DNA of 36,123 bases from Dehalococcoidia bacterium (GTDB taxonomy: Bacteria; Chloroflexota; Dehalococcoidia; SZUA-161): NCBI GenBank assembly GCA_011174795.1, contig DUEY01000047.1, forward strand, positions 1-36,123. The letters are read 5' to 3'. The position numbers and the translations under genes were made by a program. Below the pieces are notes generated by a model. The model saw nothing but the letters and a program-made list of their open reading frames with translations, did no database searches and was not told the DNA's origin. Shown one piece after another: positions 6,784-34,125 of this stretch. How positions within the stretch are numbered: the stretch's first letter is position 1; the number at the start of each line of letters is the position of its first letter.

Positions 6784-8202
6784 TTACCTCTTCTTCGCCT
6801 TTCCACGAAAGGCTTTCTTAGCCGGCTTGAATCCCCGGGCTTGTGCGATGTCTTCCGAGTCGAAGATTATGAGGTTCTCGGGCTGTATTCTCCTCAGCAT
6901 AGAGCTGTCAGCGCTATAGTATCTCTTTCTTTCCACGATCCCCTGGTGCCATTTTGAGCTTGCTATGTACCGCGGATGTATCTCGTGTTCACAGTAGACG
7001 CACCTCAGCGTCAACGGATTTTTCGACACTATCTGGAACCTGGGCTTGATGTACCGCGTCTCGGTCTCCTGCCTCGACACACAGTTCTTATTCAGGCATA
7101 GAAGCCCGGTGCTTCGTTTGTAAACCGTATAAGCCTTTTTTATTACCCGTGATGGACGTTTGCCCTCCGGGACAGCAGCCTGCTTAGCCCCGAGAAGAAG
7201 CGCTATCAGCGCCATCCTGATCGGCACCCCACGTTGTGCCTGTTTGAAGTACATGCTCCGCGGGTCAGCATCGATCTCATAGGCAAGCTCGTCGACACGG
7301 GGCAGAGGATGCATAACAATCGTCTCCTCGAATCGTTTTTCCCTGAGCAGTTTCTTATCAACGACAGGGTAGTACAATTCATCTCCACCCGCTCCGGCCT
7401 CAATCCTCTCCTTCTGAAGCCTGGTGACATAGAGGGCATCAACACCCTTCTCCATCTCGATTTGAATACCGACGGCGGGGATATTCGCCAGCTGATGAGG
7501 TCCGCTTGGCGTAATATATACGGCATCAAGGGGGAAAAGCCCCTCTATCTTCATATCCTCTGAGCCATTGTACCGTTCCAACATACCGCTATATTCTGTG
7601 GTCAGCTTCCTCACGACGTGCTCAGGCAACTCCAGCCCGGGGCTGGGGCGGAAATGGATGTCTGCGCCGAACCTCGCCAGGGCGTAGGCCAGAGAGTGTA
7701 CCGTGCGACCGTATTTCAAGTCCCCCCACAGGGCTATCTTCAACCCTTCAAGGGTCTGCCTCTCCTTCTTGAGCGTGTAGAGGTCGCACAGGGTCTGCGT
7801 GGGATGTTCATGCCCACCGTCGCCGGCGTTTATCACGGGGACTTCAGCGTAATCGGCAACAACCTGCGCCGCTCCTTCCCACGGATGCCTGATGACGATT
7901 ATGTCCGCGTAGCTTCCCACAACCCTCGCCATATCGGCGATACTCTCGCCCTTGGCCAGCGAGGTGTTGCTCATCTCCACGACTGATATCACCCTTCCCC
8001 CGAGCCGGTTCATCGCAGCCTCGAACGACAGCCGCGTCCTCGTGCTCGGCTCGAAGAACAGGCTCGCCATTACCATGCCCTGGCACAGGCCAGACTGCTT
8101 ACGTATCGAGCCAGCCATTTCGTCGGCCAAGGAGAGAACTGCCTCGATCTCCTGATTCGAGAAGTCATCTATCGTTATCAGGTCCCTATTCGCCAAGCTC
8201 AT
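6784..8202 (-). CDS. pyrB: Aspartate carbamoyltransferase with fused C-terminal PyrI-type zinc domain
   Basis: 472 residues; ordinary catalytic chains have about 310. Residues 1-338 are the catalytic chain: the carbamoyl-phosphate loop STRT at 53-56, HPWEG near 106, HPTQT near 133 and HPLPR near 298. The region around residues 230-252 looks longer than in the E. coli chain. After a basic linker, residues 369-404 carry CLNKNC and CVYC (Cys369, Cys374, Cys401, Cys404). This C-x4-C / C-x2-C spacing is that of the zinc domain of the PyrI regulatory chain. The PyrI nucleotide-binding allosteric domain is absent. About 68 further residues, ending in a very basic tail, have no recognised match. pyrB lies 7 nt after pyrR. 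It condenses carbamoyl phosphate with aspartate; the fused domain probably aids oligomer assembly. Confidence 0.94.
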   Translation of the reverse strand: MSLANRDLITIDDFSNQEIEAVLSLADEMAGSIRKQSGLCQGMVMASLFFEPSTRTRLSFEAAMNRLGGRVISVVEMSNTSLAKGESIADMARVVGSYADIIVIRHPWEGAAQVVADYAEVPVINAGDGGHEHPTQTLCDLYTLKKERQTLEGLKIALWGDLKYGRTVHSLAYALARFGADIHFRPSPGLELPEHVVRKLTTEYSGMLERYNGSEDMKIEGLFPLDAVYITPSGPHQLANIPAVGIQIEMEKGVDALYVTRLQKERIEAGAGGDELYYPVVDKKLLREKRFEETIVMHPLPRVDELAYEIDADPRSMYFKQAQRGVPIRMALIALLLGAKQAAVPEGKRPSRVIKKAYTVYKRSTGLLCLNKNCVSRQETETRYIKPRFQIVSKNPLTLRCVYCEHEIHPRYIASSKWHQGIVERKRYYSADSSMLRRIQPENLIIFDSEDIAQARGFKPAKKAFRGKAKKR

Positions 8203-10285: not shown

Positions 10286-11518
10286 ATGCCAGGGAAGAAT
10301 AAATCAGACGGATTCATTCCTCGATATCGGGTGTTGGACCTGGCCGATGAGAAGGGTGCCTACTGCGGCAAGCTTCTCGGCGACCTCGGAGCCGATGTAA
10401 TCAAGGTTGAGCCCCCGGGAGGGGACAGGACAAGGTTCCGGGGTCCTTTTCATAAGAACGAGGTCCACCCTGAGAAAAGCCTGCACTTCCTCTACTTCAA
10501 CACCAGCAAGGGTTCGATCACGCTGGATATCGAGGACAGCACGGGCCAGTCTATATTTAAAAAGCTGGTCGAGAAAGCGGACGTGGTGGTAGAGAGCTTC
10601 CCCGTAGGTTATCTTGACAGCCTCGGTCTGGGCTATCGCGCACTGCGGAAGATCAATCCCCGGCTGGTGATGACCTCCATCACGCCGTACGGGCAGAGCG
10701 GGCCCCAGAGCGGGTACAAGGCTGCCGATATCAACATCCTGGCCATGAGCGGCTACATGCAGCTTATCGGAGAGCCCGACCAGCCGCCGATGATGCTCGG
10801 CGGCGAGCAGACATTCTATCCCGCGGCACAGTACGCAACAGCCGGCACGTTAGCCGCGCTGTTCTACCGGGATGCCTCCTCAGGCAGGGGACAGCACGTA
10901 GATGTGCCGATGCAGGAGGCAATGATAACCTTCTACCACGAGCAGATGCCGGTAGCGATGTGGGAAAAGGACAAGGAGAACGTATCACGTGTCGGTGTGA
11001 TGGATGCCATGGTCACGCCCTGCGGGCTGTATCCCTGCAAGGACGGCTGGATTTCGATGTGCATTGTAACTCCCCAGGAATGGGAGGGGCTGTCACAGTG
11101 GATATACGAGGTCACCGGCAACGAGGAAATCCTGAAAGAGGAGTACAAGGGCGGGCTCATTGCACGCATGCCGGTGCGCGATATGGTTAACGTTCTGGTA
11201 ATAGAGTTCACCGACAAGCTCACGGCAAGGGAGCTCTTCCTCGAAGGTCAGAAGCGCAGGCTGGTGGTAATGCCGGTAAACGACGTGCCTTCCCTGCTCG
11301 AAGATGCGCAGCTTAACTCGCGCGGCTTCTGGGTAGAGCTCGACCATCCCGTAGTGGGTAAGATGAAGTACCCCAAAGGCGCGCTCTACAGCGACGCCAT
11401 CGGTGCTCCTCGCAGTGCAGCTCCGCTGCTGGGCGCGGACAACGAGAGAATCTATTGTAACGAGCTGGGATACTCCAGGGAAGACCTAGCGGTGCTGCGC
11501 ACTACAGGCGTTATCTAA
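10286..11518 (+). CDS. CaiB/BaiF family III CoA-transferase paralogue lacking the catalytic Asp
   Basis: 410 residues, the normal length for class III CoA-transferases, which move CoA between acyl-CoA and a free carboxylic acid. The N-terminal fold (VLDLADEKGAYCGKLLGDLGADVIKVEPPGGD) and the GRGQHVDVPM block are clear. An ungapped comparison of PPMMLGGEQTFYPAA with the common family pattern, where Asp is followed by L-T-x-G, places Phe177 at the catalytic Asp position. The protein may thus be non-catalytic by itself. The next gene, 39 nt downstream, is a paralogue with that Asp in place, so the two probably form a hetero-oligomer. GGGG lies before the ATG. Substrate unknown; the context suggests an unusual carboxylic acid. 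Confidence 0.88.
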   Translation: MPGKNKSDGFIPRYRVLDLADEKGAYCGKLLGDLGADVIKVEPPGGDRTRFRGPFHKNEVHPEKSLHFLYFNTSKGSITLDIEDSTGQSIFKKLVEKADVVVESFPVGYLDSLGLGYRALRKINPRLVMTSITPYGQSGPQSGYKAADINILAMSGYMQLIGEPDQPPMMLGGEQTFYPAAQYATAGTLAALFYRDASSGRGQHVDVPMQEAMITFYHEQMPVAMWEKDKENVSRVGVMDAMVTPCGLYPCKDGWISMCIVTPQEWEGLSQWIYEVTGNEEILKEEYKGGLIARMPVRDMVNVLVIEFTDKLTARELFLEGQKRRLVVMPVNDVPSLLEDAQLNSRGFWVELDHPVVGKMKYPKGALYSDAIGAPRSAAPLLGADNERIYCNELGYSREDLAVLRTTGVI

Positions 11519-11557
11519 CCCCCCAGACAACGTGTGAATGAAAGGAAGGATAGGGCT

Positions 11558-12781
11558 ATGGCAAAGAAACCTCTTCAAGGCATCAGAGTCATAGAGTTCG
11601 GTCTGTACATAGCACTGCCCCTGGCTACGCGCCTGCTTGCCTCCATGGGGGCAGAGGTTATCAAGGTCGAGACCCTGACATCACTCGACATGTCATGGTT
11701 CGGCCCCATCTACGCACCCGGGGCGCTTCAGCTCGAGTACCGGCCACTCAAGCGCAATGTCACCCTCGACGTGCGTCAGCCCAGGGGCAAGGAGATAATG
11801 GAGGAGTTGCTCAAGAAGAGCGACGTATACATTACCAACCTCGGCGAGGGAGCTCTGACCAAGTACGGTCTGACCTTCGACCATGTTCGGTCGCTGAAGA
11901 AGGACCTGATAGTGCTGTGGCAGACGGGCCTAGGAAGCACAGGACCCTATGGAGGCTACAAGGCGTACGGCAGGCTGATGCAGCACGCCTGCGCCGTGTC
12001 CACCATAAGCGGAACGCCCGACAGCCTCGGCGTAGCCAACGTCTCCTACTCCGATTACCACACTTCGGTGTTCAACGCGATGGCGATAATAGGGGCGCTG
12101 GAGAGACGCCGCCGCACCGGCGAGGGCTGCTTCATCGAGTGCCCGATATACGAGTCCGGCGTTGTCACCGTCGGTCCCGCCTTCCTGGACTACCAGGTAA
12201 ATAAGGTGATACCGGAGCGGAGGGAGAACAGGCACCGCTTCTTCGCCCCCCACGGCGCATATCCCTGTAAAGGTACGGACAGGTGGTGTACCATCGCCGT
12301 GACCAACGAGGAGGAATGGAAAGCCTTCTGCGGCGTTATCGGCAACCCCGCGTGGACGAAATCACCGCAGTTCGCCACCGCTGCCGACAGGGTAAAGAAT
12401 GCCAAGGAGCTGGACCGCCTGGTCGGGGAGTGGACCTCGAAGCGCAACGCCCACCAGGTGATGGAGAGGATGCAAAAGGCGGGTGTGCCGGCGGGAATCG
12501 TGTCCAAGGGGGAGGACCTCGCCAACAGCGAGCACCTGAAGAGCCACGAATTTTATAAGCATACCGAGTACTATGCTGCCGACTTCAACGCGCCCGGCGT
12601 GAAATGGCCCGTAGCCGGGACATCGCCAGTCTTCTCAGAGCCGATCTACTTCTCGGAGACACCTGTTATGTTCGGCCCCATGCACAAGGTGGGGCAGGAC
12701 AACAACTATGTCTACGGCAAGCTGCTGGGCATGTCGAAGGAGGAGATTAAGAAACTGACAAAAGAGGGCGTGTTCGCCTAG
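11558..12781 (+). CDS. CaiB/BaiF family III CoA-transferase with catalytic Asp
   Basis: About 407 residues, family III CoA-transferase. The N-terminus (GIRVIEFGLYIALPLATRLLASMGAEVIKVE) is typical. Asp166 in NVSYSDYHTSVFNAMA aligns without gaps with the catalytic Asp that forms the acyl-anhydride and glutamyl/aspartyl-CoA intermediates in this family. The ATG at 11558 is chosen because AAGGA lies 7 nt upstream; an in-frame GTG at 11534 has no better signal. It is adjacent to the paralogue that lacks the Asp, and the pair resembles two-subunit CoA-transferases such as BbsEF of toluene degradation. It is followed by a palindromic repeat and an amidohydrolase-like gene. The physiological acid and CoA donor cannot be read from sequence. 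Confidence 0.9.
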   Translation: MAKKPLQGIRVIEFGLYIALPLATRLLASMGAEVIKVETLTSLDMSWFGPIYAPGALQLEYRPLKRNVTLDVRQPRGKEIMEELLKKSDVYITNLGEGALTKYGLTFDHVRSLKKDLIVLWQTGLGSTGPYGGYKAYGRLMQHACAVSTISGTPDSLGVANVSYSDYHTSVFNAMAIIGALERRRRTGEGCFIECPIYESGVVTVGPAFLDYQVNKVIPERRENRHRFFAPHGAYPCKGTDRWCTIAVTNEEEWKAFCGVIGNPAWTKSPQFATAADRVKNAKELDRLVGEWTSKRNAHQVMERMQKAGVPAGIVSKGEDLANSEHLKSHEFYKHTEYYAADFNAPGVKWPVAGTSPVFSEPIYFSETPVMFGPMHKVGQDNNYVYGKLLGMSKEEIKKLTKEGVFA

Positions 12782-12906: not shown

Positions 12907-13803
12907 ATGGCTACGAAGCGCTTGACCAACCCCAAAGCTATTGACATGGAGTGCCTGATGAGCACCAAGGAAGGCGCGGTGAGCAGAGACCCCGCGATGA
13001 TTGAGGCTCTTCAGGAATACTTCAAGACTTCAGGAATGCGGATAAAGACCGAAGACGAACAGGCGCAAGACTGGAGAGATGCTGGTGTACAGGTGGTGAT
13101 TCTCACCGCAACAGGCAAGCCCTTCGGCTTCACCGAGTTCGAGCAGATAAAGGAAAGGCATAACTATATCGGTCAGCTTAAGAAGGATTATCCCGACGTC
13201 GTTCTGGGATTCTGGGTCGGCCTTCCCCTCGACTGGGGCGTCTGGACAGCGCTCAAGGAACTGGAGAGGTGTATCAAAGACCTGGGTAGCTACGGTGTAT
13301 TCGTCTCAGGTATGGCCGGGGTTCCGGCGAACGACAAGACGTGGTGGCCTTTCTACGAGATGTGCCAGGAGGCACAGGTCCCCATCAAGATTACAGTAGG
13401 CGCAACCGCCGGAGGCGCCGGTCAGGGCGGCGGTATGGGCATACGCCTTGCCACCGAGAACCCGATACCCAACGTGGACGACGTCGCCGCGGCATTTCCC
13501 GGCCTGAATATTATCGGGCATCACTATCCCTGGCCCTTCATCGAAGAGATGACAGCGGTCATGATACACAAGGACAACGTATACTGCGAGGTGCACGGCT
13601 GGCGGCCTAAGTACCATCATGAGCTGTTCAAGCGAGAACTGAACACCCGCGTCAGGGACAAGATAATGTTCGGCTCTGACTACCCCTTCTTCCAGTACCA
13701 GATACTCTTCGGAGACTGGGAGGCGGAGACGTACGGCATCAAGCCGGAGGTTCTACAGAACGTCTATCTCAATACGGCGCGGAAAGTGTTAAAATTAAAA
13801 TAG
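12907..13803 (+). CDS. Amidohydrolase-2-like protein with altered metal site
   Basis: 298 residues, TIM-barrel amidohydrolase-related protein (COG2159 type; relatives are decarboxylases and hydrolases of aromatic or cyclic acids). Recognisable late motifs are IIGHHYPWPF (His) and KIMFGSDYPFF (Asp), followed by the typical NVYLNTARKVLKL end. At the N-terminus, where the family has D-x-H-x-H, the sequence reads AIDMECLMS, so both His ligands appear replaced by Glu and Leu. Metal use may be altered or lost. A strong ribosome-binding site (AAGGAGGA) precedes the ATG. It lies between CoA-transferases and acyl-CoA dehydrogenases on the same strand, and so likely acts in the same catabolic route. 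Confidence 0.82.
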   Translation: MATKRLTNPKAIDMECLMSTKEGAVSRDPAMIEALQEYFKTSGMRIKTEDEQAQDWRDAGVQVVILTATGKPFGFTEFEQIKERHNYIGQLKKDYPDVVLGFWVGLPLDWGVWTALKELERCIKDLGSYGVFVSGMAGVPANDKTWWPFYEMCQEAQVPIKITVGATAGGAGQGGGMGIRLATENPIPNVDDVAAAFPGLNIIGHHYPWPFIEEMTAVMIHKDNVYCEVHGWRPKYHHELFKRELNTRVRDKIMFGSDYPFFQYQILFGDWEAETYGIKPEVLQNVYLNTARKVLKLK

Positions 13804-13847: not shown

Positions 13848-15020
13848 ATGGAGTTCAGTTTTACCCCTGAGCAGGAGCGCCTGCGGCGGGAAGTGCGGGA
13901 GTTTCTGCAGAAAACGGTGACGGATGAGAGCAGGCTGGATTTCAGGTTCGACCGACCGTACTGCCCCGATACCTGGAAGGTGCTGCGCGGTTTGGGGGAA
14001 CATGGCTGGCTCTGTCCTCTATGGCCAAAGGAATGGGGCGGGATACATGCTACGCCTCTGGACAACTATGTCATCCAAGAAGAACTGGCATACGCATATG
14101 CTCCCGCGCCATTCGCTGTGATTAGTGCCATGGTTGTGGGTCCCACGCTCCTGCTCCACGGCAGCGACGAGCAAAAGAAGAAATTCCTGCCCATGATAGC
14201 CCGCGGCGAAGTCGAGTTCTCCATGGGCTATACAGAGCCTCAGTCAGGCTCGGACCTCGCTTCGCTGGCTCTAAAAGCTGAGGACAAGGGCGACTACTAT
14301 CTGCTCAACGGCCAGAAGATGTTCAGCACCAAGGCTGACTTCGCCGAATATGGCTGGGTGGCAGTGAGAACCGACGCTGAGAACCCCAAGAAACACAAGG
14401 GTATTTCGCTGCTGATTATCGACTTGAAGAATACGCCTGGTGTCACCATCCGCCCTATCTATAGCATGAGCGGCTATCACTCCAACGAGGTCTTCTATGA
14501 CGACGTCCGTGTCCCCAAGGAGAACCTTGTCGGTGAAGAGAATCAGGGCTTCTATATTATCGGGGCAGCTCTGCTTTTCGAGCGGGCTGTTACAATCAGC
14601 GGGTTTCACCGCCCTCTTGAGGAACTGGTGGAGTACGTCAAGAATACAAAACGGCATGGGAAGCCGCTGTCAGAGGACCCACTCATCAGGCGCAAGCTGG
14701 CTGACATCGAGATGAAGTTTGCCGTAACCGGGGCGATCTCGCGCCGTCTCTGCTGGATGCAGGAGAAGAAGCTGTTTGCTCTGACCGAGACCGCAATGTC
14801 CAAGTTGCTCAGTACCGAGATAGTCTACGATATGGCGAACGCAGGTATGCAGATAATGGGCCCCTATGGCGAACTGGCGTCCGACTCCAAATATGCAGAG
14901 TTGCATGGATGGTTTGCCCATATCTACCAGGAGTCTCCACACTACAAGATCGCCGGCGGAACTTCTGAGATTCAAAGGCAGATTATCTCTACCAGAGGGC
15001 TAGGGCTTCCCAGGGGTTAG
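13848..15020 (+). CDS. Acyl-CoA dehydrogenase, alpha-type (GTSEIQR) subunit
   Basis: 390-residue FAD enzyme introducing an alpha-beta double bond into an acyl-CoA. The family blocks are present: helical N-terminus (MEFSFTPEQERLRREV), YTEPQSGSDL near residue 127, the beta-barrel FYDDVRVPKENLVGE, and the C-terminal AGGTSEIQRQII. The residue at the position of MCAD Glu376 is Gly, so the catalytic base must come from elsewhere, as in several FadE-type heteromers. AACGGAGG precedes the ATG. It resembles the protein at 31772 (shared GTSEIQR ending, GLGLPR C-terminus). Its likely partner is the acyl-CoA dehydrogenase at 16093, beyond the activase gene. Substrate unknown. Confidence 0.92.
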   Translation: MEFSFTPEQERLRREVREFLQKTVTDESRLDFRFDRPYCPDTWKVLRGLGEHGWLCPLWPKEWGGIHATPLDNYVIQEELAYAYAPAPFAVISAMVVGPTLLLHGSDEQKKKFLPMIARGEVEFSMGYTEPQSGSDLASLALKAEDKGDYYLLNGQKMFSTKADFAEYGWVAVRTDAENPKKHKGISLLIIDLKNTPGVTIRPIYSMSGYHSNEVFYDDVRVPKENLVGEENQGFYIIGAALLFERAVTISGFHRPLEELVEYVKNTKRHGKPLSEDPLIRRKLADIEMKFAVTGAISRRLCWMQEKKLFALTETAMSKLLSTEIVYDMANAGMQIMGPYGELASDSKYAELHGWFAHIYQESPHYKIAGGTSEIQRQIISTRGLGLPRG

Positions 15021-15063: not shown

Positions 15064-16029
15064 TTGGCATCTATGGTCACTCTGAGAGGTTTGCCTTTGA
15101 GTAGTCCCAGAAGCAGGAAAAAGAACGAAATTAAGGGCTGCGTTTTTAATATAGAGCGATTCGCCATACGCGATGGGCCGGGAATCAGAACCACCGTTTT
15201 TTTCAAGGGCTGCCCGCTTCGATGCCTCTGGTGCAGCAACCCGGAATCGTTCCAGCCCTCCCCACAGCTTTTCTACTTCGAACACCTGTGCCAGCAATGT
15301 TATCGTTGTGTTGACGCATGCCCTAACAAGGCCACCTCGGTAAACCCAGAGGGCGGTATAGAGATAGCTAGAAACCTATGCAAGGCTTGTGGCAAGTGCG
15401 TTGAGGTATGTCCCACCAAGGCCAGAGACATAAGCGGGATGATTATGACCGTTGACGAAGTGATGGAGGAAGTGAAGAAGGACATGCTGTTCTATCAAAA
15501 CTCAGGCGGCGGAGTTACCGCCTCAGGAGGCGAGCCGACGCACCAGCCTGAGTTCCTCCAGCGTCTCTTCGAGAGGTGTCATGAGTCAGCAATCCATACG
15601 TGCCTGGATACCTGCGGATTCGTGAAATCCAAGGTGCTGCAGAAGATACTGGCGTATACCGACCTAGTTCTCTACGATATAAAACATATGGACCCGGTGC
15701 AGCATAAGAAGCTAACCGGTGTAGACAACGGCATCATATTGGAAAACGCCAGAATGATCGCCACTCAAGGAAAGCCAATGATTGTAAGGGTGCCCTTGAT
15801 ACCACGGCACAACGACTCGGAGCAGAATATCAAAGCACTGGCCGGGTTTATGGCTGATCTTAAACTGAAAAAAATAGACCTTCTCCCCTACCACGCACTT
15901 GGCAAGGCGAAATACGAAAGATTGGGTCTGGAATACAAACTAAGCAAGCTCAAGCCACATAAAAGCAAGGAGATAGAAGCGATTAAGACCGCTCTGGAGT
16001 CCTACGGTCTGGAAGTCGGGGTAGGCTGA
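15064..16029 (+). CDS. Glycyl-radical enzyme activating protein (radical SAM)
   Basis: About 321 residues. It has the activase signature GPGIRTTVFFKGCPLRCLWC with SAM-cluster Cys50, Cys54 and Cys57. Next come two ferredoxin-like [4Fe-4S] motifs: Cys76, 79, 82, 86 and Cys106, 109, 112, 116. The SAM-binding SGGEPTHQPEF follows. Activases of this kind (BssD, HpdC, CutD, GD-AE) place the glycyl radical on a partner enzyme anaerobically. No glycyl-radical enzyme is in this window. The start is uncertain: TTG at 15064 has GGAG only 4 nt away, and ATG at 15073 is an alternative. It sits 43 nt after one acyl-CoA dehydrogenase and 63 nt before another, suggesting an anaerobic route. Confidence 0.9.
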   Translation: MASMVTLRGLPLSSPRSRKKNEIKGCVFNIERFAIRDGPGIRTTVFFKGCPLRCLWCSNPESFQPSPQLFYFEHLCQQCYRCVDACPNKATSVNPEGGIEIARNLCKACGKCVEVCPTKARDISGMIMTVDEVMEEVKKDMLFYQNSGGGVTASGGEPTHQPEFLQRLFERCHESAIHTCLDTCGFVKSKVLQKILAYTDLVLYDIKHMDPVQHKKLTGVDNGIILENARMIATQGKPMIVRVPLIPRHNDSEQNIKALAGFMADLKLKKIDLLPYHALGKAKYERLGLEYKLSKLKPHKSKEIEAIKTALESYGLEVGVG

Positions 16030-16092
16030 CCTTCCACCCCGCGTGAGCGATTCCGGTTGATTACGGTTTCTGACGACAAAAAGGAGGAGAGC

Positions 16093-17226
16093 ATGGATTA
16101 CGCTCTTAGTGAACAACAGGAAATGCTGAAGAATACGGCGCGCGACTTCCTGGCAAAGGAATGCCCGAAGACGCTGGTACGAGAAATGGAGAAGGATGAG
16201 AAGGGCTACTCACCCGAGCTGTGGAAGAAGATGGCGGAGCTCGGTTGGATGGGTCTGGTGTTCCCCGAGGGATACGGCGGCAGCGGGTTAACCGTACTGG
16301 ACCTCACCATCCTTCTCGAAGAGATGGGGAGAGCGCTTGTCCCCGGTCCTTTCCTTTCGACCGTTGTCTGCGGCGGGTTAACCATTCTGAAATGGGGCAG
16401 TGCAGAGCAGAAAAAGGAACTGCTTCCCAGAATCGCGAAAGGGGAGTTGATACTTGCGCTAGCCCTTACCGAGCCCAGCGCCAGCTACTTCGCGGAGGAT
16501 ATAACCGTTAAAGCTGCCCCCGACGGAGATGATTTTGTAGTCAGCGGCACCAAGCTTTTCGTGGAAAACGCCCATGTTGCCGATTACCTGATATGCGTCA
16601 CCAGAACCAAGGAAGGCAAGAATAAAAAGGACGGGATCACGGTCCTCCTCGTGGATGCAAGGAGTCCGGGCATTAGCTACACACTTCTGAAAACCTTCAC
16701 CGCCGATAAGCAGTGCGAGGTCATTTTCGACAAGGTGCGTGTTCCCAAATCCAACGTGCTCGGCAAAGTGGATAAGGGGTGGCAGATAGTTGAGGATATT
16801 ATAGAGCAGGCGGCGTTTGCACTGTGTCCCTGGATGACAGGCGGTGCTCAGCAGGTTCTGGAAATGGCGACCGAATACGCCAAGGAGAGAGAGCAGTTCG
16901 GCCGTCCCATAGGGAGCTTCCAGGCTCTCCAGCACAAGTGTGCCAACATGGCGACCGATATCGCCGGAGCGAGGGACATTACCTACCAGACAGCCTGGAA
17001 GATCAGCGAGGGGCTGCCCTACAAGAAGGACATCTCAATAGCGAAAGCATGGATTAATGAGGCCTATCGCAACGCCTGTGTCGAGGGTACTCAGATTCAC
17101 GGTGGCATAGGAATTACCCAGGACCACGATATGCAACTCTATTACCGCCGTGCCAAGGGGATGGAAATCGCCTTCGGTGACGCCGACTACCACCTCGAAC
17201 TGGTGGCACAGGAGATGGGCCTCTAA
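16093..17226 (+). CDS. Acyl-CoA dehydrogenase, beta-type partner subunit
   Basis: About 377 residues. It has the acyl-CoA dehydrogenase fold (ALTEPSAS near residue 128, VIFDKVRVPKSNVLG, and REQFGRPIGSFQALQHKCA near 273). The C-terminus ends in FGDADYHLELVAQEMGL instead of the GTSEIQR block. Such chains usually pair with a GTSEIQR chain in alpha2-beta2 enzymes, as described for mycobacterial FadE proteins; here 13848 is the candidate. The ATG at 16093 has AAGGAGG upstream; a longer TTG start has none. It is closely similar along its length to the protein at 32995. Its stop codon abuts the stop of the opposite-strand gene at 17227. Confidence 0.92.
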   Translation: MDYALSEQQEMLKNTARDFLAKECPKTLVREMEKDEKGYSPELWKKMAELGWMGLVFPEGYGGSGLTVLDLTILLEEMGRALVPGPFLSTVVCGGLTILKWGSAEQKKELLPRIAKGELILALALTEPSASYFAEDITVKAAPDGDDFVVSGTKLFVENAHVADYLICVTRTKEGKNKKDGITVLLVDARSPGISYTLLKTFTADKQCEVIFDKVRVPKSNVLGKVDKGWQIVEDIIEQAAFALCPWMTGGAQQVLEMATEYAKEREQFGRPIGSFQALQHKCANMATDIAGARDITYQTAWKISEGLPYKKDISIAKAWINEAYRNACVEGTQIHGGIGITQDHDMQLYYRRAKGMEIAFGDADYHLELVAQEMGL

Positions 17227-31771: not shown

Positions 31772-32959
31772 ATGGATTTTACATTCACCGAAGAACAGGA
31801 TAAGTTCCGCCAGGAGGTGAAGGATTTCCTGGCAAAGCAGCTCCCCGCGGACTGGTTGACTGGAGGGGCGCCGGAAGAGGAAACCGACGAATGGTGGGAG
31901 TTTACCAAAAAGTTCCTGCTGGCGATGGCCGATAAGGGCTGGCTCTCACTTACATGGCCCAAGGAGTACGGGGGCCAGGAGCGTCCTCTTTGGGAAGACG
32001 CTATTCTGGGCGAGGAGCTTGCCTACGCGAGGGCGCCGGGCATGGATTACTGGTACCGGTGGAAGATGATAAGCGCCCTCCTGCTCAACTTTGGCAATGA
32101 CGAGCAGAAGAGGAAGCACCTGCCGGGAATAGCCAGCGGTGAGGTTCACTGGGCCCAGGGCTTCAGCGAGCCTGAGGCAGGCTCCGACCTAGGAGCAACG
32201 AAGGTACGCGCTGAAGATAAGGGCGACCACTGGCTGGTAAACGGGCAGAAAATCTGGACCACCGGAGCCCACCGGTCTAACTGGTGCTTCGCGCCAATGA
32301 TGACAGACCCCGACGCTGAGAAGCGCTCGCGAAGGCTGAGCATGCTGCTCATCGACATGAGTACACCGGGCATCACGGTGAACGTCATGGAAAGCATGGA
32401 GGGGGCTTCACACGTTTGCGAGACCTTTTTCGATGACGTCCGCGTGCCCAAGGAGAACCTGGTTGGTGAAAGAGGGCGGGGCTGGCTGGCGGCTATGGCG
32501 CTGGTGAACATCGAGAGATCCGGCACGGGGTTTGCCTCACTGCCGCAAAGGGTCCTGGAGCAACTTGTCCAGTACGCGAATGAGACGAAGTGCAACGGCG
32601 TACCGCTGGCTCAGGACCTGGTGATTCGCTCCAAGCTGGCCCAGATTGCTATAGAGATAGAGGTCTGCCGCATGCTCGCCTACCGGACAGCCTGGGTACA
32701 GAACACAGGGCAGGACGTTACGTCCGTAGGAGCAATGATCAAGCTTTTTGGCAGCGAGATGATGCAGAGAATTTCTAACACGGGGTTGCAAATCATGGGA
32801 CCCTACGGACAGCTCGAGCCGGGCTCTAAACGGACACAGATTGCCGGCCTGATCGAGCGTGACTACCTGTGGAATGTAAGCATGACCATAGCCGGGGGCA
32901 CATCGGAGATTCAACGTATTATCATTTCAACAATTGGCCTGGGGCTGCCCAGGATGTAG
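31772..32959 (+). CDS. Acyl-CoA dehydrogenase, alpha-type (GTSEIQR) subunit
   Basis: 395 residues. Family blocks: MDFTFTEEQDKFRQEV, WAQGFSEPEAGSDLG near residue 130, FFDDVRVPKENLVGE near 219, and the C-terminal AGGTSEIQRIII with GLGLPRM. Gly occupies the MCAD Glu376 position, as in the protein at 13848. A good ribosome-binding site (AAGGAG) lies 6 nt before the ATG. It is followed after 35 nt by a beta-type partner on the same strand, which makes an alpha2-beta2 enzyme likely. The many Trp residues in the N-terminal third may shape a bulky-substrate pocket; that is only a guess. Confidence 0.93.
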   Translation: MDFTFTEEQDKFRQEVKDFLAKQLPADWLTGGAPEEETDEWWEFTKKFLLAMADKGWLSLTWPKEYGGQERPLWEDAILGEELAYARAPGMDYWYRWKMISALLLNFGNDEQKRKHLPGIASGEVHWAQGFSEPEAGSDLGATKVRAEDKGDHWLVNGQKIWTTGAHRSNWCFAPMMTDPDAEKRSRRLSMLLIDMSTPGITVNVMESMEGASHVCETFFDDVRVPKENLVGERGRGWLAAMALVNIERSGTGFASLPQRVLEQLVQYANETKCNGVPLAQDLVIRSKLAQIAIEIEVCRMLAYRTAWVQNTGQDVTSVGAMIKLFGSEMMQRISNTGLQIMGPYGQLEPGSKRTQIAGLIERDYLWNVSMTIAGGTSEIQRIIISTIGLGLPRM

Positions 32960-32994
32960 ATTACAGCCTAAAACGACGAACAGGGGGAAAGAAC

Positions 32995-34125
32995 ATGGAC
33001 TTTGCGCTTAACGAAGAGCAGGAAATGCTGCGGAAGATGTCCCGCGACTTCCTGGAGAACGAGTGTCCCAAGTCGCTGGTGCGGGAGATGGAGGAGGACG
33101 AAAAGGGGTACTCGCCCGAGCTGTGGAAGAAGATGGCTGAACTGGGATGGATGGGGCTGGTCTTCCCCGCGGAATACGGCGGAGAAGGGATGAATTTCCT
33201 CGACCTGACGGTTCTCATCGAGGAATTGGGCCGTGCGCTCGTGCCCGCGCCTTACCTCTCAACGGTGGTCTACTGCGGGTATGCCATCCTGGCAGCGGGT
33301 ACCGAGGAGCAGAAAAAGGAGCTTCTGCCCAAGATAGCGAAGGGCGATTTAATCCTGACCCTCGCCCTGACCGAACCCAGCGCCAGCTGGGAACCCTCGG
33401 GAGTGGAAGTCAAGGCAGTTCCCGAAGGGGACGATTTCGTCATCAGCGGCACCAAGCTGTTCATCTCCGATGCCCATATCGCTGACTACCTGCTGTGCGT
33501 CACGAGGACCAAGGAGAGCAAGGGCGAGGACGGTATCACCCTCTTTCTCGTGGACGCCAAGAGCCCGGGGATAAGCCTCACGCCGTTGAAAACAATCGCC
33601 TCCGATAAGCAGTTCGAGGTCGTTTTCGACAAGGTGAAGGTTCCCAAGAAGAACATGGTAGGGGAACTCGACCGCGGCTGGGACGTGATTAAGGATATGC
33701 TGCCCAAGGCGACGCTGGCGCAATGCGCCCTGATGGTCGGCGGCGCTCAGCAGGTCCTGGAGATGAGCGTGAACTACGCCAAGGAGAGGGTACAGTTCGG
33801 CCGTCCCATCGGGAGCTTCCAGGCGATCCAGCACAAGTGCGCCGATATGGCGACCGACGTCGACGGTTGCCGCTTCATCACCTATCAGGCGGCGTGGAAG
33901 CTGAGCGAGGATCTGCCCTGCGCCCTGGATGTCTCGATGGCCAAGGCATGGGTGAGCGAAGCGTACCGTCGTACCTGCGTGGAGGGGCACCAGATACACG
34001 GCGGCATCGGCTTCATCAAGGACCACGATATGCAGCTCTACTACCGCCGGGCCAAGGCATCGGAGCTCATTTTCGGGGACGCCGACTACCACCGCGAACT
34101 GGTAGCGCAGCAGATAGGGCTCTAA
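32995..34125 (+). CDS. Acyl-CoA dehydrogenase, beta-type partner subunit
   Basis: About 376 residues. It is the close paralogue of the protein at 16093 (shared segments such as DEKGYSPELWKKMAELGWMG and QFGRPIGSFQA, and the ending FGDADYH-ELVAQ-GL). It has the FAD fold but not the GTSEIQR block. The ATG at 32995 is chosen because the family begins at MDFALNEEQEML and GGGGGAAAG precedes it. A longer frame from 32869 overlaps the upstream gene and is not used. It pairs with 31772. Confidence 0.93.
   Translation: MDFALNEEQEMLRKMSRDFLENECPKSLVREMEEDEKGYSPELWKKMAELGWMGLVFPAEYGGEGMNFLDLTVLIEELGRALVPAPYLSTVVYCGYAILAAGTEEQKKELLPKIAKGDLILTLALTEPSASWEPSGVEVKAVPEGDDFVISGTKLFISDAHIADYLLCVTRTKESKGEDGITLFLVDAKSPGISLTPLKTIASDKQFEVVFDKVKVPKKNMVGELDRGWDVIKDMLPKATLAQCALMVGGAQQVLEMSVNYAKERVQFGRPIGSFQAIQHKCADMATDVDGCRFITYQAAWKLSEDLPCALDVSMAKAWVSEAYRRTCVEGHQIHGGIGFIKDHDMQLYYRRAKASELIFGDADYHRELVAQQIGL

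Follow-up and report, generated by a model that had tools for sequence, protein, structure and literature searches.

A tandem pair of family III CoA-transferase genes resembling BbsE and BbsF, with the catalytic aspartate in the second subunit only, in a Dehalococcoidia bacterium

The window (the whole stretch of DNA that was analysed, 36,123 nucleotides) is one entire contig of a genome of 1.81 Mb in 76 contigs, estimated to be 89.6% complete. It contains two tandem genes on the + strand, here called A and B, which lie in the same reading frame and both encode family III CoA-transferases (Table 1): the CoA_transf_3 domain spans nearly all of each protein, with scores of 296.8 bits for A and 272.3 bits for B against a cut-off of 23.3. 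This agrees with the earlier note on this DNA, which had described the two proteins as full length and adjacent. B is listed from a GTG at 11534; it most likely starts at the ATG at 11558 instead, because the latter is preceded by a better ribosome-binding stretch (purine-rich and GGAAGGAT-like) and because 407 a.a. is also the length listed for B in six out of seven close relatives. The aspartate of B discussed below is residue 166 counted from ATG 11558 (the numbering that the earlier note had used) and residue 174 counted from GTG 11534.

Table 1. Genes of the conserved cluster in the window
Gene product	Position	Strand	Remarks
ORF A, subunit A, BbsE-type family III CoA-transferase	10286..11518	+	410 aa, CoA_transf_3
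ORF B, subunit B, BbsF-type family III CoA-transferase	11558..12781	+	407 aa, CoA_transf_3
Amidohydrolase_2-family protein	12907..13803	+	relatives carry a counterpart of 75-91% identity here (incomplete in two of them)
Acyl-CoA dehydrogenase, best model PimC-like	13848..15020	+	profile matches
Glycyl-radical-enzyme activase	15064..16029	+	TIGR02494, 370 bits; listed TTG start uncertain
Acyl-CoA dehydrogenase, PimD-like among best models	16057..17226	+	last gene of the conserved cluster

A and B are the first genes of a six-gene cluster, followed by the amidohydrolase, an acyl-CoA dehydrogenase, the activase and another acyl-CoA dehydrogenase. The cluster is complete in two related genomes (G002 and G007) and can be followed to the contig limits in four others (G001, G003, G004 and G005); what was recovered together in G008 is limited to A, B and a partial match to the amidohydrolase. 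The profile match of the Amidohydrolase_2 protein begins at profile position 64, so that the first metal-binding strand is either absent or degenerate; there is no HxH near the N-terminus, and judging from its sequence the protein may bind metal in an altered way. The activase contains a CxxxCxxC motif and two ferredoxin-type cysteine clusters, and is the only match over the cut-off in its genome. The scan of window ORFs gave no match to a thiolase, a hydratase or a BssA-like enzyme (the genome being about 90% complete), and the larger window ORFs yielded none to a glycyl radical enzyme. Elsewhere in the window there is a second pair of acyl-CoA dehydrogenase genes (31772-34125, + strand, overlapping as listed), whose products are 41% and 69% identical to the two of the operon, and an aspartate carbamoyltransferase gene (6784-8202, - strand) that encodes, within one chain, a PyrI metal-binding domain at the C-terminus.

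Only one of the two CoA-transferases has the conserved catalytic aspartate of family III. When A and B are aligned with SUGCT, 4ed9, BbsE and BbsF, the catalytic-Asp column of SUGCT, 4ed9 and BbsF holds Phe177 of A (TTC, 10814-10816) and Asp166 of B (GAT, 12053-12055), as the earlier note had proposed from an ungapped comparison. In BbsEF the same column is occupied by D178 in BbsF and by Tyr171 in BbsE. The title of PDB entry 9fol is 'BbsEF, D178-CoA adduct', so the BbsF residue that aligns with Asp166 of B is the very residue titled as covalently modified. An alternative alignment that places an aspartate in the active site of A was looked for and none was obtained: the sole aspartate within 15 residues of Phe177 is Asp165 (in 'GEPDQPP'), and it matches a second, non-catalytic aspartate of 4ed9. 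As 4ed9 has an aspartate at both places (GEPDREP...GVAFAD), no small shift brings an aspartate into the site of A. Among A orthologues of ∼80% identity the column holds Phe, Cys or Tyr, a variation that fits a position freed from catalysis.

By sequence, the closest solved relatives are BbsE for A (9fn0_A, E-value 3e-54) and BbsF for B (9fn0_B, E-value 3e-46). An approximate maximum-likelihood tree of 283 sequences (FastTree) separates the two types: the complete set of 101 A-type sequences, BbsE among them, falls on one split with 15 of the 85 others (support 0.84-0.92), and the complete set of 97 B-type sequences, BbsF among them, on a second with five of the 85 others (support 0.99), the A and B labels being derived from gene order and from the profiles of the survey described below. 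In alignment A3, six single rows from three close relatives fall on the correct half.

The predicted structure of A alone (from an alignment of 26 sequences) has a mean pLDDT of 84, with a poorly ordered N-terminus and with residues 157-164 and 222-242 mostly below 50. Its best structural match is again BbsE (9fn0_A; Z 37.3, rmsd 3.0 over 393 residues), although SUGCT and a Brucella formyl-CoA transferase come within one Z unit, in effect a tie; the group of FRC, CaiB, SUGCT and YfdE shares the fold at Z of about 33-37. Since the two genes share a frame, reading past the stop of A yields one chain of 831 residues, and the model of this chain (from an alignment of 25 sequences) reaches a pTM of 0.90 and a mean pLDDT of 87. 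Leaving aside the linker and residues 1-5, it has no segment below 50, and residues 157-164 and 222-242 of A rise, although the two models are not strictly comparable, as the chain contains an artificial 14-residue linker and was predicted from a different alignment. Against 9fol_A the TM score is 0.89 for the read-through model and 0.84 for A alone, and the read-through model matches 9fn0_B at 0.94; in that model these matches presumably come from the A half and the B half, respectively.

The same arrangement recurs in the genome. There are 24 matches to family III CoA-transferases, and 18 out of 22 such ORFs are paired. In all nine pairs A comes before B and B has the aspartate, and in eight of them A lacks it; the ninth (C65) stands at the edge of a contig. 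For a wider survey we drew 310 distinct family members from loci of this genome, of its relatives and of named contigs, and assigned them to A or B with two profiles built from the pairs of this genome and BbsEF; since most loci were retrieved with A as the query, the sample is not random. The best matches with a named source are for the most part bins of Chloroflexi/Dehalococcoidia, and the rest include Proteobacteria and Acidobacteria. Among 117 adjacent same-strand pairs in this sample, 102 are in the order A then B (the remaining 15 comprise nine B-A, four A-A and two unclear pairs). Four of the 102 were left out of the residue counts because a partner was short or unread. In the 98 readable pairs, B invariably has the aspartate, which is missing from A in 91 (Tyr in 45, His in nine, Phe in eight, and others); across the survey as a whole the residues at the A site include Y, F, H, E, S, Q, C, L, N and G. 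The arrangement of an A without the aspartate and a B with it is therefore more than chance. It is not obligatory, as both subunits have the aspartate in the other seven readable pairs, and a tandem pair in Aromatoleum toluclasticum (L101:8971-11438) keeps it in both members. The numbers of such genes vary widely: one relative has 83 family III matches, and six out of 60 genomes have no match close to A. In two relatives, aldehyde ferredoxin oxidoreductase genes were observed near A-B pairs (L055:6355-8142 and L062:5853-7628).

The two subunits also diverge together. For 48 of 73 pairs (those with Asp in A, unread columns or partial members were dropped) the distances among A and among B proteins are correlated with a Mantel r of 0.93, and none of 2000 permutations was as high; for the pairs less than 50% identical r is 0.69 (20 pairs; none of 2000 permutations), and within this genome alone it is 0.78 (two of 2000 permutations) for seven of the nine pairs, two being omitted on the same grounds. 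In four other genomes of the class (G023, G037, G050 and G051) some adjacent CoA-transferase matches share one open frame. We selected 20 of these natural fusions (L258-L277, 767-878 a.a. as read) from longer match lists, excluding one antisense ORF (L267, + strand). The first half is A-like and lacks the aspartate at the column in all 20 (with Glu in five), and the second half has it in all 20, with one column uncertain (L269); 19 second halves score as B, and that of L269 gives a marginally better score for A than for B. The fusions, again with A before B, provide good evidence for the two proteins acting as a unit.

We consider it highly probable that A and B form a hetero-oligomer of the BbsEF type, in which interlocked family III subunits have one kind of active site, built on Asp166 of B. 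The genes are adjacent, E type then F type; the aspartate is in the F-type subunit and absent from the E-type one; and each protein groups with its counterpart in the tree. The BbsEF-like layout suggested in the earlier note is borne out by the best solved relatives, the tree, the fold of A and the alignment with D178, and the hetero-oligomer that it had thought likely gains support from the joint model and the natural fusions; the indicators of an A-B complex (joint model, fusions and co-divergence) are all predictive in kind. In family III enzymes the subunits are interlocked, each site lying between the large domain of one subunit and the small domain of the other, and the conserved aspartate forms a covalent intermediate (PMC9196870). 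With this layout a hetero-pair would have one live site, made of the aspartate of B and the small domain of A, and one dead site.

For the assembly in the cell, the donor, the direction of transfer and the role of A, we infer the following. At the active site centred on B, Asp166 would form a covalent aspartyl intermediate with the acyl donor, which by analogy with BbsEF is probably succinyl-CoA, and the CoA would then be passed on to an organic acid as acceptor. The site centred on A would be dead, because Phe177 replaces the aspartate. B would thus do the chemistry and A would be the partner that completes and shapes the site of B, which would leave the sequence of A free to specialise for the acceptor acid. 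As for that acid, it is possible, though on balance somewhat doubtful, that it is a carboxylate from a glycyl-radical-enzyme pathway, with the activase of the operon serving to activate the radical enzyme and the two acyl-CoA dehydrogenases then oxidising the carboxylate.

The genome has one glycyl radical enzyme, located on another contig at about 5 kb or less from a different A-B pair and surrounded by genes for acyl-CoA dehydrogenases, MaoC-like hydratases, an enoyl-CoA hydratase, and thiolase-like and ChsH2-like OB-fold proteins. In G002 (L065), two glycyl radical enzymes directly precede an A-B pair (58% and 53% identical), and a dehydrogenase of 81% identity to the 13848..15020 protein of the window comes next; in G001 (L154), one glycyl radical enzyme directly precedes an A-B pair (57% identical in A). 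These linked radical enzymes show 71-89% identity where compared. In the readable copies (G000, G001, three in G002, G003, G004, G005 and G007) the active-site Cys is followed by Met-Arg, or in one copy by Leu-Arg, whereas the same site reads Val-Glu in glycerol dehydratase and Met-Ser-Pro in BssA and MasD. Loci with this C-[ML]-R group are L022:11725-14178, L065:1057-6005, L154, L225, L226, L232, L252 and L253, and fragments that end short of the active site were found in G006 (89%) and in G008 (74%; 246 N-terminal residues, L278).

The linked enzymes score best to B12-independent glycerol dehydratase (447 and 479 bits), and reading them as benzylsuccinate or alkylsuccinate synthases is unsupported, with ∼360-370 bits to MasD and BssA; the one enzyme of this genome is likewise not BssA/MasD-like, by best match or by motif. 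Another genome of the same class (G036; L231, L255) has a match of 1317 bits to MasD, the 1-methyl alkylsuccinate synthase, with two activase genes beside it.

The conserved operon with its activase, and the A-B pairs found behind radical enzymes, make a radical-initiated pathway linked to the pair plausible. An activase of the window type occurs in eight out of nine genomes of the family (66-77% identical in the relatives), and in eight out of nine it is present together with the C-[ML]-R radical-enzyme group. In the ninth, G008, there is no recognisable window-type activase, with short ferredoxin-type matches only; the idea that G008 lacks activase and radical enzyme together was dropped, since it has the radical-enzyme fragment of 246 residues mentioned above.

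There is, on the other hand, close to an even chance that the pair is real and acts on a substrate unconnected with any glycyl radical enzyme, in which case the activase just happens to lie nearby and serves the radical enzyme encoded elsewhere in the genome. That the larger window ORFs include no match to such an enzyme, that the only one in the genome is on another contig beside a different A-B pair, and that G008 retains A, B and the radical-enzyme fragment with no recognisable activase all fit this reading, and the two acyl-CoA dehydrogenases, which would suit almost any CoA-based breakdown, also weigh against the radical link. It is opposed by the conservation of the six-gene cluster in relatives, by the related pairs directly behind radical enzymes in L065 and L154, and by the joint presence of activase and radical-enzyme group in eight of the nine genomes. 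A more specific proposal can be put forward only tentatively and is rather unlikely as a whole: the pair would supply CoA activation in an anaerobic pathway not yet described, whose first enzyme would be a new C-M-R/C-L-R type of glycyl radical enzyme, switched on by the activase of the window, and the A subunits would have diversified over many paralogous pairs as dead, substrate-shaping partners.

As to the pair itself, B could instead be an ordinary homodimer, with A as a separate protein, inactive or of another activity, that lies beside it by chance. Homodimers of identical subunits, both with the aspartate, are what FRC, CaiB, SUGCT and YfdE form, and in our survey the aspartate is present in 14 out of 15 B-type sequences that stand single or at contig edges. 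But the A-then-B order in 102 of 117 adjacent pairs, the co-divergence of A and B, the fused versions, the joint fold with its high pTM and the presence of both subunits in the solved BbsEF entries together make this improbable. That A is itself catalytic through another residue, which would give two different active sites, is very improbable: Glu174, three residues before Phe177, is nearly invariant in ten aligned A proteins and would be the candidate, but the site varies freely among A subunits (F, C or Y even at about 80% identity), BbsE has Tyr there, and the adduct named in the title of 9fol bears the residue number of the aspartate of BbsF.

The BbsEF-type reading bears on how genomes of this class are interpreted. 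Several of them are rich in family III CoA-transferases and others have few or none close to A, and such genes are easily counted as so many enzymes. With 18 of 22 ORFs paired and eight of nine first members lacking the aspartate, roughly a third or more of these genes may encode non-catalytic partners, and partners of this kind, if so common, would change how catabolic potential is read from genomes. Both the proportion of partners without the aspartate and the link to the unusual radical enzyme are worth following; the latter, by tying the pair to an uncharacterised group of glycyl radical enzymes, would allow a concrete search for the substrate.

As an enzyme, the A-B pair most probably belongs to the already known BbsEF type. 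In both there are two family III subunits with the catalytic aspartate in the F type only, and each protein of the window is closest in sequence to its counterpart, in the gene order bbsE-bbsF known from the bbsEFG operon (PMC11497800). The differences are that A is ∼32% identical to BbsE, that the dead site has Phe in A but Tyr in BbsE, and that the pair of the window has no adjoining bbs-type gene set. BbsEF proper, the benzylsuccinate enzyme, was rejected on this context: genes for an amidohydrolase, a glycyl-radical-enzyme activase and two acyl-CoA dehydrogenases stand beside the pair in place of the bbs/bss neighbourhood of toluene degradation.

The homodimeric enzymes FRC, CaiB, SUGCT and YfdE share the fold with A and the catalytic aspartate with B. 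Fused family III CoA-transferases resemble the pair in having the half without the aspartate first and the half with it second; they differ in that the two halves are one chain from one gene, whereas A and B are encoded by two. DddD is a two-domain member of family III with the aspartate in its second domain. In a paper on SAR202, DddD is reported as the top hit for a subset of the CoA-transferases described, and the best 12 of 20 passages of that paper make no mention of inactive partners (PMC5395668). Two further systems are likened to A and B by description, not by sequence: SptAB, the succinyl-CoA:phthalate CoA-transferase, is described as a family III enzyme (PMC11659651), and LssDE, the limonenylsuccinate CoA-transferase, is described as acting after a fumarate-adding glycyl radical enzyme (PMC12583861).
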